The notes beneath the pieces are model-generated. The model searched no databases and was not told the DNA's origin. It saw only the letters and a program-made list of their open reading frames with translations. The position numbers and the translations under genes were made by a program. Shown here piece by piece: positions 6,601 through 47,754 of a stretch of 64,000 nucleotides of DNA. This DNA is from Variovorax paradoxus NBRC 15149 (GTDB lineage Bacteria; Pseudomonadota; Gammaproteobacteria; Burkholderiales; Burkholderiaceae_C). The DNA is taken from assembly GCF_001591365.1 (NCBI RefSeq), contig NZ_BCUT01000008.1, positions 1 to 64,000 on the forward strand, given 5' to 3'. Each line of letters starts with the position of its first letter. The first letter of the stretch is position 1.

Positions 6601-7692
6601 AGTCAGCGTCCCGGTGATCACCGAGCCGCCTTGCAGTTCGAGCGAGTTGTCGTTGCCGGTGATGCGCACCGCATCGCCACGCGTAGCGCCGACGCCGGCG
6701 AGGCCCCCGGTCAAGATGCCGGTGTTGACGATGGTGTTCGTGTTGCCGCGGATGCGCAGGCCCGCGCCGCCGATGCCGTTGACTGCGCTGCTTCCGCCGG
6801 CACCGCCCGCACCTCCCACCAGCGCGCCGGTATTGAGCACCGAGTTGCCGCTGGATTCCAGCGCCAGGCCGGCACCGCCTTCGCCGCCGCCGCCCACCAG
6901 GCCGCCGGTGGTGACGGTGCCGCCACTCCCGCCGTTTCCGCCCGCGGCCGTGCCGGTGTTGGTGACAACGGCGCCTCCGCCTTGCAACACGATGCCGTCG
7001 CCGCCGCCGCCACCGCCGCCGGCCCATTGGCCGACGCCGCCGTTGCCCCCATTGCCGCCCGTGACCGTCAGGCTTGAGTTGCTGACCACAGCATTGGCAG
7101 CGACCGCCTGCAGGCCCGCGCCACCGCCACCGCCGCCGCCAGACAGGCGCCCAATGCCTCCATTGCCGCCGTTGCCACCCAGGAGAGTGGTCCCACCCAC
7201 CACGGTGATGGATGTGTCGGAGGTGTACACGGCGGCACCGCCGCCGCCGCCGCCGCCGGCGCCGTAGACGGGGTCTGGGTCGGCGACGCCGTTGGTTCCC
7301 GACGCCCCAGTGGCGGAGCCCGCGGCACTGGTGGCGCCTACCGCGCCGCCCGTACCGCCAGCCCCCGCCGCACCGTTGCCGCCAGCACCGCCGGCTCCGG
7401 CTGTCGGCGCCTGTCCATTGCTGGTGGGGTACTCGCCGACGCTGCCGCCCCCGGCGCCGGCGCCATTTCCCGCGCCGCCGCGGCCGCCGGTGCCTCCCCC
7501 TACCATGGCTGCATCTCCGCCGGCGGCCTGCGCCGAGGCCGTTCCCGGCAGGCTCGCAAGCGCCAGCAGGCACACGGCCGCCGCGGCCGAAGAAGAAACA
7601 GAAGCCCCCCGCGCGCGCCGCCGCGAAAGCTCCGAAACGGCCACCCACGCTCCCAGCGCAGCGTTCCAGACGCTGCAATGAATGTTGTTCAT
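3622..7692 (-). CDS. Type Va autotransporter with ESPR-type signal, glycine-rich passenger and 12-strand barrel
   Basis: The 1356-residue protein opens with an extended signal peptide (NIHCSVWNAALGAWVAVSE, then an Arg-rich stretch and a hydrophobic core ending SAQA near residue 55). This ESPR type is common in large autotransporters. Residues about 58-330 are dominated by GGNGG/GGGGGG tracts alternating with short beta segments. Several passenger-associated repeats of the form LxKxGxGTLxLxGxNxYxGGT follow (near residues 490, 740 and 825). Between them lies a block of about seven 20-21-residue repeats. A Pro-rich linker (PPADPVAPPAAPP) leads to the C-terminal autotransporter barrel (about 1060-1356), which ends in LGVRVKW with an aromatic last residue. 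Likely an adhesin or surface-structure protein; no protease triad was seen. Confidence 0.93.
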   Translation of the reverse strand: MNNIHCSVWNAALGAWVAVSELSRRRARGASVSSSAAAAVCLLALASLPGTASAQAAGGDAAMVGGGTGGRGGAGNGAGAGGGSVGEYPTSNGQAPTAGAGGAGGNGAAGAGGTGGAVGATSAAGSATGASGTNGVADPDPVYGAGGGGGGGAAVYTSDTSITVVGGTTLLGGNGGNGGIGRLSGGGGGGGAGLQAVAANAVVSNSSLTVTGGNGGNGGVGQWAGGGGGGGDGIVLQGGGAVVTNTGTAAGGNGGSGGTVTTGGLVGGGGEGGAGLALESSGNSVLNTGALVGGAGGAGGSSAVNGIGGAGLRIRGNTNTIVNTGILTGGLAGVGATRGDAVRITGNDNSLELQGGSVITGTLTANGIGNVLRLAGALTDGTTSLGAATYRGFDRYEKTGASTWTLTGTTTELTPWHVLGGTLAIADDAALGSSAGALTLDGGTLRATGTTAGTRNVTVGAGGAAFEIDPAQALTLNGVLSGSGSLQKTGAGTLVLGAANNYSGGTLVNDGSLVATASGALGSGPVIVNASLTFETGVNAGSLSITNQNGYTRFNGTSTAGTASIVNNNGSGTDFYGDSRAGTASITNNDYAFTYFRETASAEQATILNPSGTTFFIQNATAGNANIDNSGGQARFYDSSSAGSANIINRSGGITYFVNTSSAESATIDNRAGGSVDASYHTGGLSIGALSGAGRLLLGAEAVSVGALGTNTTISGVIADGGENGGTGGSLVKVGTGTLTLSGANTYTGGTALKQGRLDLGHSQALGTGTLAMDDGTTLGFSANGLTIANAIELTGSNDPVIDTGAFSETLSGAISGGGFITKQGSGTLTLAGANTYTGATNVAQGTLRAGAANTFSASSAHSVAAGATLDLAGFSQTVASLANSGTVSLVGNAPGTTLTVSGPYTGNNGVLRLGTALGADGSASDRLVLDGPTAIASGSTTVQVTNLSGLGALTSGNGIEVISARNGATTTAQTTKSAFSLAGGHVDAGAYEYRLHAADAGGAGENWYLRSTTNVAPPADPVAPPAAPPVVVPTYRAEASLYAALPSQLRQGSLAMLGDLRKRVGDDDVKGTAAAPAGSQRRAWARVLSADIDIRQGGTVSPTSKGRLTGVQAGTDLLAAPNWRAGLYVGQLDGDARVNGFASGLQNLRVGRNDLRSQYVGIYGTYSGDSGLYADAVVQSGRHRYTVQPNLGGGVEGKGHSLLGSIEVGQAFALGASGWSVEPQLQLIHQHLDLNNAAIVGAVVQPETDSGWIARAGIRVKGELATGLGTLQPYGRFNVYKSSSGADVASFVNGATRTDIAAPTGGTSTELAGGFTLALGNTTSLYGEVGKLWSSGGDAKVKSSVNASLGVRVKW

Positions 7693-40492: not shown

Positions 40493-41215
40493 ATGTCCCA
40501 TCGCAACGAAGCCACGGCCGCGCTGAAGGCGCTCAGCGTGGCGACCGATGCCTGCCGCGAATGCCCGCTGGGCGCGCATGCCACCCAGTCGGTGTTCGGC
40601 GAAGGCCCGGTCGGCGCGGCGCTGATGGTGGTCGGCGAGCAGCCCGGCGACAAGGAAGACCTGGTCGGCCGTCCCTTCGTGGGCCCGGCCGGCAAGCTGT
40701 TCGACCGCGCGGTGGCCGAGCTCGGCTGGTCGCGCGAGAAGCTCTACGTGACCAATGCGGTGAAGCATTTCAAGTACGAGCCGCGCGGCAAGCGCCGCAT
40801 GCACAAGACCCCGGGCCAGCGCGAAGTGGATGCCTGCCACCACTGGCTCGAAAGCGAGATGGAGCTCGTGCAGCCGCGCGCCTGCATCGCGCTCGGCGGC
40901 ACGGCTGCGCGCTCACTGCTCGGCCGGCCGGTCGCGGTGATGACGGAGCGCGGCCAGTGGGTCGAGGATGCCGCAACAGGCCGCCGCGTGCTGGTCACGC
41001 TGCATCCCTCCGCCCTGCTGCGCGGCGATCCGCTGCAGCGCGAAGCGGCCTGGGAAGCCTGGCTCAAGGACCTGTCGATGGCTTCGGAGCTGATGAAGAA
41101 AGCCGGGGCCAGGCGGCCGGCCGAAAAACAGCCCGCCGCCGAAAAGCCCGAAAAGCCCGCGGCCAGGCCCGCCGCAAATCATGCGCGGCGCCGCGTGCGC
41201 ATGGTGATGGAATAG
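40493..41215 (+). CDS. udgX: UdgX-type uracil-DNA glycosylase (family 4-like, Fe-S)
   Basis: The 240-residue protein has the UDG motif GEQPGDKEDLVGRPFVGPAG (residues 48-67) and LVTLHPSALLRGDP as the second active-site motif. Cysteines C21, C24, C115 and C131 can bind the [4Fe-4S] cluster. The KRRMH sequence (residues 100-104) corresponds to the KRRIH loop that defines UdgX, whose His forms a covalent bond to the abasic site after uracil removal. Here Ile is Met but His104 remains. A Lys/Pro/Ala-rich tail of about 40 residues follows and overlaps the 3' end of the convergent AlkB-type gene by 37 bp. Confidence 0.88.
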   Translation: MSHRNEATAALKALSVATDACRECPLGAHATQSVFGEGPVGAALMVVGEQPGDKEDLVGRPFVGPAGKLFDRAVAELGWSREKLYVTNAVKHFKYEPRGKRRMHKTPGQREVDACHHWLESEMELVQPRACIALGGTAARSLLGRPVAVMTERGQWVEDAATGRRVLVTLHPSALLRGDPLQREAAWEAWLKDLSMASELMKKAGARRPAEKQPAAEKPEKPAARPAANHARRRVRMVME

Positions 41216-41787
41216 CGCAGCGCCTCGGTCGGCGCGATGCTGTGCTGCCAGGCCCAGCGCGCTTCGCCGCGCAGCATGTAGATGGAGCGCGGCTCGATCA
41301 GCAGCTGCAGGCTCGCAGGTGCGCTGGCGCTGGCCGGCGGATAGGGCCGCAGTTGCATCACTGCGTCGCCCTGCAGCGAAACGCCCACGATGTCCTCGAA
41401 GTCCGGCACGTCGCGGTGCCAGCCGAGCGGCGTGCCGGGCCGGTATTCGGAGATCAGCATGTGGGCGAAATCCTCGGGCGCCATGCCCATCCACGCGGCC
41501 ACCCGCGCACGCAACGGATGAAGCGCGGGCGGCATGGCCGCGCCGGGGCGCAGCCGCTTCTTGTCGAAGTCGTAGCTGCCGCCAAAGCTGATGCCGCGGC
41601 GGCGCGCGGTGTATTCCTTGTAGCGCATCTCGCGCAGCTCGAAGCCCTGCACGAGCCGCAGCAGCTCGGCTTCCTCGGCGCGCGTGAGGAATTCGCGCTC
41701 GTAGCGCAGGCCATCGATGGCGGCCGCGGGCGCCTCGCCGAACAGGTCGGGCTCGTCAGCGAACTGGATGTGCCTGGTTGAGCGCAT
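41179..41787 (-). CDS. AlkB-type 2-oxoglutarate/Fe(II) dioxygenase
   Basis: The 202-residue protein has the Fe ligands H124 and D126 in GWHRDVPDFEDIVGVSL and H182 in WQHSIAP. The 2-oxoglutarate arginines are in RYSITMRTRR (R191, R197). ISEYRPGTPLGWH is typical of the ALKBH/AlkB fold. It should demethylate alkylated DNA or another substrate. ATG 41787 lies within the last 32 bases of the helicase gene upstream, so it is probably cotranscribed with that gene and under the same SOS-type control. Confidence 0.87.
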   Translation of the reverse strand: MRSTRHIQFADEPDLFGEAPAAAIDGLRYEREFLTRAEEAELLRLVQGFELREMRYKEYTARRRGISFGGSYDFDKKRLRPGAAMPPALHPLRARVAAWMGMAPEDFAHMLISEYRPGTPLGWHRDVPDFEDIVGVSLQGDAVMQLRPYPPASASAPASLQLLIEPRSIYMLRGEARWAWQHSIAPTEALRYSITMRTRRRA

Positions 41788-44113
41788 CGATGCTCTCTCC
41801 TTCGCCCGCGCGCGGCGGCCCGCCCAGGCGCAGCTCCCACCAGGGCGGCAGCAGCTGCCGGATCTCGGCGCGCGCAAAGCGGTCGTCCAGCAGGTGCAGC
41901 ACGCCGCTGTCCTGCTCGGTGCGGATGACGCGGCCGGCCGCCTGCACCACCTTTTGCAGGCCGGGATAAAGGTAGGTGTATTCGTAGCCCTTGCCGAAGC
42001 GCGCCTGCATGCGCTCGCGCGTGATCTCGTTGAGCGCGTTGTGCTGCGGCAGGCCCAGGCTCGCCACGAAGGCGCCGATCAGCCGGCTGCCGGGCAGGTC
42101 GATGCCTTCGCCGAACGCACCGCCGAGCACGGCAAAGCCGATGCCCCGGCCGCCCTCCTCGAAGCGCGCGAGAAAGCCGTGGCGATCGGCCTCGGCCATG
42201 CCGCGCGTCTGGGCCCACACGGGCACGCCGGGGTGCCTGGCCAGGAAGGCCGCGCAGGCTTTTTCGAGGTAGTCGAAGCTGCTGAAGAACGCGAGGTAGT
42301 TGCCCGGCATGCGCTCGAACTGCTCGCCGATGATCCCGGCCACGCGAGCGAGCGAGCCCGCGCGGTCGCGAAAGCGGGTCGACACGTTCATGGCCACTTC
42401 CACGCGCAGCTGCTGGCTGCGGAATGGCGAGGCCACGTCGAGCAGCATCGTTTCCGGCGGCAAGCCGAGCGCGTCGCGGTAGAACTCGAACGGCGACAAG
42501 GTGCCCGAGAAGCAGGTGACCGATGCGGCGTCCGCGAAGCGCGGCTCGAGGAACGGCGCCGGCACCAGGTTGCGGATCGCGAGGCTGCGCTGCTGCTGGT
42601 CGTGCGCGGGGCCCAGCGTGCGCTCGAAGACCGAATGGTCGTCGAAGGCGTCGGCCAGCCGGGCGAACTGCAGCGCATCGAAGAAGAAGCGCTGCAGCGG
42701 GCCCTGCGCCGCATCGGGCGTGGCCGCAAAGTACTCGCCCATGGCCGTGTTGGCGGCCTGCAGCGTGCGCGCGAAGCGCTCGGGAATCTCGTCGGCGGTG
42801 TCGTAGGGCTCGGCCTGCGCCTGCTGCACCGTGTCCCATTCGCGGTACAGCCGGCCCAGCGCGCCGCGCACCGAGGCCGGCGCCACGCGGTGGGCCTCTT
42901 CGAGCGCGAGGCCGTCGAGCCGCGCCGTGTACATGCCGCGCGCGCGCTCCAGCAGGTTGTGCGCCTCGTCCACCAGCACCGCCGCGCGCCATTCGGCATC
43001 CTTCATGGTGGCGTAGAGAAAGGCGCTGCCGTCGAAGTAGTAGTTGTAGTCGCCCACGATCAGGTCGCACCAGTGCGCCATTTCCTGCGCAAGGAAATAG
43101 GGGCACACGGTGTGCGCCAGCGCAATTCTTCGCAGCGCCGGCCGGTCGAGCCGGGCGGCCTGCGCGGCTTCCTCGCGCGCGGCGGGCAGGCGGTCGTAGA
43201 AGCCCTTGGCCAGCGGGCAGGCATCGCCGTTGCAGGCGCGGTCGGGGTATTCGCAGACCTTTTCGCGCGCGGTGAGTTCGAGCACCCGCAGCTGCGCGCA
43301 GTTCTTGCCCAGCACGCCGACGGCCTCCAGCGCCACGGCCCGGCCCGAGGTCTTGGCGGTGAGAAAGAAGATCTTGTCGATCTTGCGCGCGGCCCGCGAC
43401 TTCAGCAGCGGAAAGATGGTGGCCAGCGTCTTGCCGATGCCGGTGGGTGCCTGCGCCATCAGGCAGCGCGCGTTCACGGCGGCGCGGTAGACGGCCTCGG
43501 CCAGTTCGCGCTGGCCGGGCCGGAACGAGCCGTGCGGAAATTCAAGCCGGCCGAGCGCATGGCCGAGCGCCGCATGGTGCGCGGCCTCGCTCTGCGCCCA
43601 GGCGCTGTAGCGCTCGCACAGCAGTTCGAAATGCGCCTGCAGCGCGGCCCGCGTGTGCTGCTCTTCCAGCACGGTTTCGTCGCCGGTGCCGAGGTCCAGG
43701 TAGACCAGCGCCACGTTGATGTGCTCGTAGCCGTGCACCTCGCAGAGCATCCAGCCGTAGCAGCGGGCCTGGGCCCAGTGCAGCGCCCGGTGGTTGCCGC
43801 GGATGGCGTCGAAGTCGCCGCGGAAGGTCTTGATCTCCTCGACGCGGGGTTCGCGCGGGTCGTGCCCGTCGGCACGGCCGCGCACCTGGAGCGCGCCGCA
43901 GCGGGAGACCAGCGGCACCTCGCTTTCATAGCCGTCGCCGCGCCGGCCCTGCACCAGCGCATGGCCGGCCATGCCTTCGAGCGCGCTGGGTGCAGGCACG
44001 AAGCGCAGGTCGAGGTCGCCGGCCTTGGCACCGAAGGCGCACAGGGCCTTGACGGAGACGGCGCGGGCATCGGGCGCGTCTTCGGTCGGCGGGGTGGAAA
44101 GGTCCGTGGTCAC
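41756..44113 (-). CDS. SF2 helicase of the XPD/DinG type fused to an N-terminal PD-(D/E)XK nuclease domain
   Basis: The product has 785 residues from GTG 44113; a TTG at 44134 lies inside the SOS box and is unlikely. Numbered from that TTG, residues about 27-200 form a RecB/Cas4-like nuclease with D89, E100-I-K102 and Q122...Y126. The helicase starts near 205: Walker A APTGIGKT (229-236) and DEAH (389-392). Four cysteines (C294, C301, C306, C344) are placed as in the XPD Fe-S domain. C-terminal motifs are FSGTLSP, GIGFAVLGGAFGEGIDLPG and QAAGRVIRTEQD. It probably unwinds and cuts damaged or branched DNA. The AlkB-type gene overlaps its 3' end. Confidence 0.88.
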   Translation of the reverse strand: MTTDLSTPPTEDAPDARAVSVKALCAFGAKAGDLDLRFVPAPSALEGMAGHALVQGRRGDGYESEVPLVSRCGALQVRGRADGHDPREPRVEEIKTFRGDFDAIRGNHRALHWAQARCYGWMLCEVHGYEHINVALVYLDLGTGDETVLEEQHTRAALQAHFELLCERYSAWAQSEAAHHAALGHALGRLEFPHGSFRPGQRELAEAVYRAAVNARCLMAQAPTGIGKTLATIFPLLKSRAARKIDKIFFLTAKTSGRAVALEAVGVLGKNCAQLRVLELTAREKVCEYPDRACNGDACPLAKGFYDRLPAAREEAAQAARLDRPALRRIALAHTVCPYFLAQEMAHWCDLIVGDYNYYFDGSAFLYATMKDAEWRAAVLVDEAHNLLERARGMYTARLDGLALEEAHRVAPASVRGALGRLYREWDTVQQAQAEPYDTADEIPERFARTLQAANTAMGEYFAATPDAAQGPLQRFFFDALQFARLADAFDDHSVFERTLGPAHDQQQRSLAIRNLVPAPFLEPRFADAASVTCFSGTLSPFEFYRDALGLPPETMLLDVASPFRSQQLRVEVAMNVSTRFRDRAGSLARVAGIIGEQFERMPGNYLAFFSSFDYLEKACAAFLARHPGVPVWAQTRGMAEADRHGFLARFEEGGRGIGFAVLGGAFGEGIDLPGSRLIGAFVASLGLPQHNALNEITRERMQARFGKGYEYTYLYPGLQKVVQAAGRVIRTEQDSGVLHLLDDRFARAEIRQLLPPWWELRLGGPPRAGEGESIDALNQAHPVR

Positions 44114-44120
44114 GGCTGAT

Positions 44121-44140
44121 GCTGTATAAAACAACAGTAT
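44121..44140 (-). promoter_or_regulatory. LexA-type SOS box
   Basis: The core CTGT-N8-ACAG occupies 44122-44137. Read on the minus strand, the 20-nt element ATACTGTTGTTTTATACAGC is close to the TACTG-(TA)5-CAGTA consensus. A TATACT (44140-44135) could serve as -10, so LexA would block the promoter. The element lies eight nt before the likely GTG start of the helicase gene. Confidence 0.85.
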
Positions 44141-44210
44141 AACGAGACCACCGCACCGGGGGCAAAGGCGGTATCGGGCTTTTCTCCGACACCCGGCGCT
44201 CCAGAATTCG

Positions 44211-44231
44211 GCAAAACTTCAAAAGTTTTGC
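44211..44231. promoter_or_regulatory. Operator-like palindrome in front of the hybrid-kinase operon
   Basis: GCAAAACTT (44211-44219) and AAGTTTTGC (44223-44231) form perfect 9-bp arms with a 3-nt spacer. It ends 17 nt before the ATG at 44249. It could be a repressor site or a short hairpin near the ribosome-binding site. Confidence 0.5.
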
Positions 44232-44248
44232 TTACAAATCCTGTTCGA

Positions 44249-47754
<3,506 letters not shown>

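Follow-up and report, generated by a model that had tools for sequence, protein, structure and literature searches.

A putative LexA operator before the genes of an EndoDinG helicase-nuclease and a divergent AlkB dioxygenase in Variovorax paradoxus

In the 64,000 nucleotides of the Variovorax paradoxus NBRC 15149 genome analysed here (the window), the stretch between a helicase gene and a divergent CHASE3-GAF hybrid histidine kinase gene contains the palindrome CTGT-N8-ACAG, which is the operator type of beta- and gamma-proteobacterial LexA. The question raised by this locus is whether the palindrome places the helicase gene, and with it the gene of an AlkB-family dioxygenase that overlaps its end, under SOS control. 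The reading favoured from sequence comparison, to which we give a probability of roughly 0.8, is that a LexA operator covers the -10 element and the presumed transcription start of a two-gene EndoDinG-AlkB operon. The features of the locus are listed in Table 1.

Table 1. Features of the helicase-AlkB locus (positions in the window)
Feature	Position	Strand	Basis or remark
AlkB-family Fe(II)/2-oxoglutarate dioxygenase, 202 aa	41179..41787	-	ATG 41787; PF13532; overlaps helicase gene by 32 nt
EndoDinG, 785-aa XPD/DinG-family helicase with N-terminal PD-(D/E)XK nuclease domain	41756..44113	-	GTG start 44113; Pfam, structure match, residues
Shine-Dalgarno-like GGAGAGAG	41793..41800	-	inside helicase gene, before AlkB start; putative function
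Putative LexA operator (SOS box) CTGTTGTTTTATACAG	44122..44137	-	pattern match and conservation in relatives
Predicted sigma-70 promoter TTGCCC-18-TATACT	44136..44165	-	consensus match; all 36 near relatives have TATACT
CHASE3-GAF hybrid histidine kinase	start 44228/44249	+	divergent from helicase

A pattern search of the window and the genome identified CTGT-N8-ACAG at 44122-44137, where the plus strand reads CTGTATAAAACAACAG and the minus strand TATACTGTTGTTTTATACAGCA; on the minus strand the sequence across the box to the gene start is TATACTGTTGTTTTATACAGCATCAGCCGTG, the box running from 44137 down to 44122. The bare pattern has no significance over chance: shuffled windows contained 0.55 copies on average, with at least one copy in 47 of 100 shuffles, and the genome contains 24 sites compared to 12 sites of the backward pattern. 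The 20-base extended motif, with two mismatches or fewer, gave 18 genome matches and was rarer than its backward control (43 matches). The site being unremarkable by number, a case from the motif count alone was dropped, and the weight was put solely on position and conservation. At least six A/T are found in the 8-base core of eight of the 24 genome sites, including the one at 44122-44137, for an expected number of 0.33 at the composition of the window (69% G+C). It is the A/T-rich core, the overlap with a promoter and the conservation that lift the box above chance.

The conservation count comprised 126 distinct loci among 142 usable ones, out of 146 loci with the helicase gene, identical 600-nt stretches and loci with truncated starts being left out. 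The box was scored as the best core match out of 8 between -120 and +75 relative to the start, with four control motifs for comparison. Among the 71 distinct Variovorax loci, 36 scored 8/8 and 25 scored 7/8 (61/71 in all, including at least one locus, L073 at 7/8, in which the box lies inside coding sequence and is probably due to chance), whereas the four control motifs reached 8/8 in none and 7/8 in 0 to 4 of them, the reversed motif being found at 8/8 in 0 and at 7/8 in 4. Against conservation, 10 of the 71 loci score 6/8 or less. Information in the alignment of the 36 near relatives averages 1.65 bits per column within the box, compared to 0.97 in the 16 columns directly before it, 0.18 in the 29 columns further upstream and 0.34 in the 14 columns after it, and the string TATACTG is invariant. 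In the distant Variovorax clade the box is mostly CTGTATATTCATCCAG, at a variable distance from the start. The closest named record among the matches listed is V. beijingensis, with 95% protein identity.

TTGCCC-18-TATACT is the sole sigma-70-like promoter detected within 43900-44400 (shuffle mean 0.0), and its -10 element shares 2 nt with the box, so that transcription would be expected to begin inside the box. The original prediction had placed an SOS box at 44122-44137 and a LexA operator over the helicase promoter. The box is present, the promoter overlap and the conservation both back it, and it is very probably a LexA operator; its place over the promoter likewise finds comparative support. 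The choice of GTG 44113, which opens the 785-codon helicase gene on the minus strand, is also supported comparatively, as the box is followed by its first in-frame start codon at +21 to +29 in 35 of the 36 near relatives (+38 in L030). Of the 61 boxed loci, nine show a stop codon in frame within or downstream of the box, and the in-frame TTG at box position 3 is present in seven. Some in-frame start codon, at differing positions, is found within the box in 24 of the 61, which speaks against the GTG start, and the further claim that the box excludes the TTG at 44134 does not follow from the box alone.

The genome encodes lexA, and the protein contains the segment FKSANAAEEHLQALARKG, which we take to resemble the E. 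coli recognition helix. The sites before lexA (CTGGTTAAAAATACAG and CTGGATATTCAGCCAG, 7/8 and 6/8) and before recA (CTGTTCAAGCATCCAG and CTGTGATTAAAAGCAG, both 7/8) are imperfect, so LexA may accept imperfect half-sites in this organism and the matrix is a loose one. Near CTGT-N8-ACAG sites of the genome and the full-length palindrome at C5:43461 lie, among others, two imuA genes (NF033429), a DprA-like gene and a radical-SAM gene, a set in keeping with a LexA regulon; a Pfam search of three box-neighbour genes (L035, L039 and L057) gave no match. ImuA was confirmed at L055 and L049 (NF033429), and DnaE2 at L056 and L182. The gene behind imuA at L055, L049, L192, L201 and L237 is presumably imuB, by place and likeness; no NCBIfam model matched the five putative imuB genes tested, and no Pfam model the two that were compared to Pfam.

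Several of these sites deserve a description of their own. A full 20-base palindromic LexA-type site lies between the second imuA and a divergent SRAP gene (L049, C5:43461-43480). The imuA gene with a box at C7:342570 is followed further on by the end of an error-prone DNA polymerase gene (dnaE2). At C5:28566 (L048), a LexA-type box is found about 80 nt before the likely start of the DprA-like gene, with a LigD-type ligase gene nearby. The A/T-rich 8/8 box at C7:349390 (L056), flanked by the ends of two genes and followed by no clear gene start, may be due to chance.

The product of the helicase gene carries the Pfam domains Helicase_C_2 and DEAD_2. The Fe-S cysteines C287, C294, C299 and C337, the APTGIGKT motif (222-229) and the DEAH box (382-385) are invariant in 8 sequences, and both the four-cysteine Fe-S domain and the SF2 motifs of EndoDinG are present. 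In the N-terminal 190 residues, H51, E65, D82, E93-x-K95 and Q115-x3-Y119 are invariant in 8 diverse sequences. The EndoDinG type is defined by the PD-(D/E)XK residues H, E, D, E and K (EndoDinG section of the review PMC11981726); H51, E65, D82, E93 and K95 make up this set, in a correspondence assigned in this analysis. The protein matches Finegoldia magna DinG (PDB 9kqh) over its full length (E 4.8e-102), and its AlphaFold model (pLDDT 77, pTM 0.69) superposes on that structure with TM scores of 0.83/0.88, although identity is only 29%. With the Pfam domains, the 9kqh match and the invariant nuclease and helicase residues behind it, the originally predicted helicase-nuclease is by its sequence an EndoDinG, a putative endonuclease-helicase.

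XPD/DinG-family helicases under LexA are known from other bacteria: LexA is established as a regulator of dinG and yoaA in E. coli (PMC11981726), and in P. aeruginosa PA1044-PA1045, of which PA1045 is dinG, are direct LexA targets (PMC12796719). The Variovorax gene resembles these in its putative LexA operator, but differs from the DinG and YoaA types in encoding the nuclease-bearing EndoDinG. PA1044-PA1045 had been considered as a published precedent for the Variovorax helicase; this was dropped, as the FAN1 of P. aeruginosa is PA1865 and PA1045 is most likely an ordinary DinG. LexA control is not mentioned in the EndoDinG section of PMC11981726.

The helicase has homologues in other genera, and the loci analysed there were taken from the best 80 of at least 564 relatives. 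In 33 of 55 such loci, a gene with a VRR-NUC motif (FAN1-type) ends at the helicase start. This gene was recognised by a regular expression on the motif, and the one checked against structures, from a Pseudomonas locus (L154), matched the bacterial FAN1 structures 4r89/5y7g with E about 5e-203. At the FAN1 start of these 33 loci from the best 80 relatives, the box scored 8/8 in 21 and 7/8 in 5 (26/33), and 6/8 or less in 7; the control motifs reached 8/8 in 0 and 7/8 in 1 to 13 of the same loci, the highest count of 13 making the 7/8 class alone weak evidence there. An 8/8 box also precedes EndoDinG without FAN1 in seven Caballeronia/Burkholderia loci (L132, L134, L135, L152, L162, L163 and L169). 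The Variovorax unit is thus like the FAN1-EndoDinG pair of Massilia, Pseudomonas, Paraburkholderia and others in having a homologous helicase and a LexA-type box at its head. Unlike that pair, it has no FAN1: a search of 45 Variovorax genomes with PF08774 gave just two weak matches, in frames of 237 and 272 aa, and no VRR-NUC gene of FAN1 size, and one Variovorax subclade has AlkB instead, downstream. As a like box stands before FAN1-EndoDinG or lone EndoDinG in other genera, and as most loci of the distant Variovorax clade have the box with no AlkB in the examined flank behind the helicase, SOS control of the helicase is probably an older state than the AlkB linkage.

Among the Pseudomonas species, 8/8 LexA-type boxes were observed before FAN1-EndoDinG at six loci (L154, L168, L174, L175, L176 and L178). 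In P. aeruginosa, PA1865 (FAN1) and PA1866 are reported as UV-C responsive and outside the three known damage regulons of this species (PMC12796719), and gene order leads us to guess that PA1866 is EndoDinG. The boxes of the other Pseudomonas species predict direct LexA control of PA1865/PA1866, and FAN1-EndoDinG as a LexA operon, if true, would explain their damage response. No published LexA control of FAN1-EndoDinG was found in the literature considered.

The second gene of the predicted operon encodes a protein with the hallmarks of the AlkB family, namely the HxD...H iron site and the RxxxxxR 2-oxoglutarate motif. The corresponding residues H124, D126, H182, R191 and R197 are invariant in 12 sequences. 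Its AlphaFold model (pLDDT 87) has the double-stranded beta-helix fold, and the 50 matches listed by Foldseek were all AlkB/ALKBH structures or NMAD-1, with TM about 0.7; RNA-acting and DNA-acting AlkB homologues resemble the model to about the same degree. The gene overlap claimed in the original prediction amounts to 32 nt here, between ATG 41787 and the helicase stop at 41756-41758, and to 8 to 32 nt, from projected AlkB starts, in 29/29 adjacent pairs (the start is unsure in L018, where GCG stands as the projected first codon). Owing to this overlap, helicase and AlkB are probably co-transcribed. AlkB lies next to the helicase in 29 of the 66 loci examined, all in the near clade (29/34, the exceptions being L021 and L031-L034). 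In L113 and L114, an open frame intervenes and AlkB is found 1.5-1.7 kb away from the helicase.

On the other side, a UdgX-family uracil-DNA binding protein gene (TIGR03914; 40493-41215, plus strand) converges on alkB, so that the two genes share 37 nt at their 3' ends (41179-41215). Behind alkB, L005-L017, L024 and L093 likewise have a UdgX match, and the overlap is not present in all of them.

Relatives of this AlkB were then considered apart from the helicase. The subfamily was detected at E <=1e-25 in 31 of 399 genomes drawn from the family, and together with Variovorax these gave 37 rows of non-operonic AlkB, representing 36 loci (L197 and L248 are one locus). Left out were partial matches in G043, G006 and G077, a weak second match in G039, and the complete matches of G009, G010 and G016, which in G009 and G016 lie on the helicase contig within about 2 kb. 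Before AlkB the box scored 8/8 in four and 7/8 in two of the 36 loci; the four control motifs gave 8/8 in none and 7/8 in 0 to 6 of the 37 rows, so that the two 7/8 boxes are weak by themselves. In three of the six boxed loci (L192, L201 and L237), AlkB has the box in common with a divergent imuA and the putative imuB. In L182, L184, L244 and L247, a dnaE2 match precedes AlkB on the same strand, and 9 to 41 nt separate its end from the beginning of the AlkB match. Altogether, 10 of the 36 loci have a LexA setting (behind dnaE2, facing imuA, or with an own box) and the other 26 have none. An AlkB tree was built from 11 of the 32 operonic rows and 38 others, with L090 excluded for a stop in frame and L113 and L114 scored as SOS-linked. 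The ten loci with a LexA setting all belong to a clade of 12 (support 100/95), of which L232 and L235 are unlinked, and the EndoDinG-linked AlkB clade (98/94) is separate from this imuA/dnaE2-linked clade. At least three changes between the SOS-linked and unlinked states are needed on the tree, a number that does not distinguish gains from losses. The ties of the AlkB subfamily to SOS thus look repeated, on two separate branches.

From these patterns a wider proposal can be made, which we hold tentatively and at slightly under even odds: the Burkholderiaceae AlkB subfamily would be a repeated SOS recruit, by way of EndoDinG, of the imuA/dnaE2 cassette or of an own box, working with SOS machinery that exposes single-stranded DNA, and FAN1-EndoDinG would be a widespread, unlisted LexA operon. 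Such joint work would be a bacterial counterpart of the human ASCC3-ALKBH3 pairing. In titles and abstract openings, no AlkB-EndoDinG operon, no linkage of AlkB to the imu cassette and no LexA control of EndoDinG were found.

A narrower interpretation of the locus itself is that the box serves the helicase as a LexA operator, while AlkB is a passenger: a constitutive promoter within the helicase gene would drive it, and it would have no functional link to SOS. The 26 of 36 loci outside the clade without LexA box or SOS neighbour, the displaced AlkB of L113 and L114 and the constitutive AlkB of P. putida (PMC3788762) would all agree with it. We nevertheless consider it improbable, since the genes overlap in every adjacent pair and a Shine-Dalgarno-like stretch precedes the AlkB start in the window, adjacency is retained in most of the near clade, and AlkB genes of the other branch, which follow dnaE2 or adjoin imuA boxes, reach an SOS pairing by another route.

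The shared LexA-controlled operon remains the preferred reading, and its AlkB gene had originally been predicted to be under SOS rather than Ada-type control. The first half of this statement agrees with the position of the gene behind the box, but the exclusion of Ada overreaches, as the genome keeps an Ada-AlkA protein (C6:135542, with Ada metal-binding, AraC and AlkA domains) and a second AlkB (C9:34173) elsewhere. No LexA-type site with one mismatch or fewer was found in the 3540-base locus of the latter, and of the genome's AlkB genes only that of the window is under the putative operator at 44122-44137. The single match to the Ada box AAT-N6-GCAA in the window lies at 6845 and there is none near the operon, a weak test given that none is found at the genome's own ada locus either. 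The locus therefore shares an AlkB-family enzyme with the E. coli Ada regulon (ada-alkB), but is not an ada operon: AAT-N6-GCAA is absent nearby and Ada-AlkA and the other AlkB are located elsewhere. In Streptomyces venezuelae, alkB is a direct LexA target by ChIP-seq and RNA-seq (PMC9380542), as AlkB would be in the LexA regulon predicted here. The two cases differ in the actinobacterial LexA motif of S. venezuelae and in the helicase, no such partner being mentioned for alkB in what PMC9380542 says of it.

The operator might also belong mainly to the divergent kinase and not to the helicase, given that the kinase starts about 90-112 nt from the box and adjoins the helicase in 34/34 near-clade loci. 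This is very unlikely, because the flanks examined in the distant Variovorax clade and other genera contained only five weak kinase-like matches (26-40% identity), the box upstream of the helicase or FAN1 is still kept in many of these loci, and the promoter match is oriented toward the helicase. Least credible of all is a chance palindrome in the gap of two divergent genes: nearly half of the shuffled windows hold a match, but the box columns are far better conserved than most of the gap, the box is retained although its distance to the start varies, and control motifs are much scarcer.

For the EndoDinG-AlkB operon, the following course of events is proposed. In undamaged cells, a LexA dimer on the box would exclude RNA polymerase. 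Upon DNA damage, RecA filaments would induce the self-cleavage of LexA, and the operon would be transcribed. The EndoDinG helicase-nuclease would be translated first, followed by the divergent AlkB dioxygenase from a start codon within the helicase gene. EndoDinG could then open and nick DNA at stalled forks or crosslinks, and AlkB could reverse N-alkyl lesions in the single strands thereby exposed, so that the two enzymes may cooperate.

If this model is correct, both genes should switch on together upon chromosome damage. DinG-type helicases under LexA are known, whereas EndoDinG and its frequent partner FAN1 are not described as SOS genes in the EndoDinG section of PMC11981726, and the box pattern across genera makes their SOS control directly testable. 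Beside the predicted SOS operon of EndoDinG and a divergent AlkB, the apparently repeated SOS tie of the AlkB subfamily is the least expected part of these results. On two separate branches, judging from this linkage, the SOS programme seems to have acquired direct reversal of base damage, which is relevant to the question of why lesion reversal is paired with translesion synthesis and fork repair in cells.
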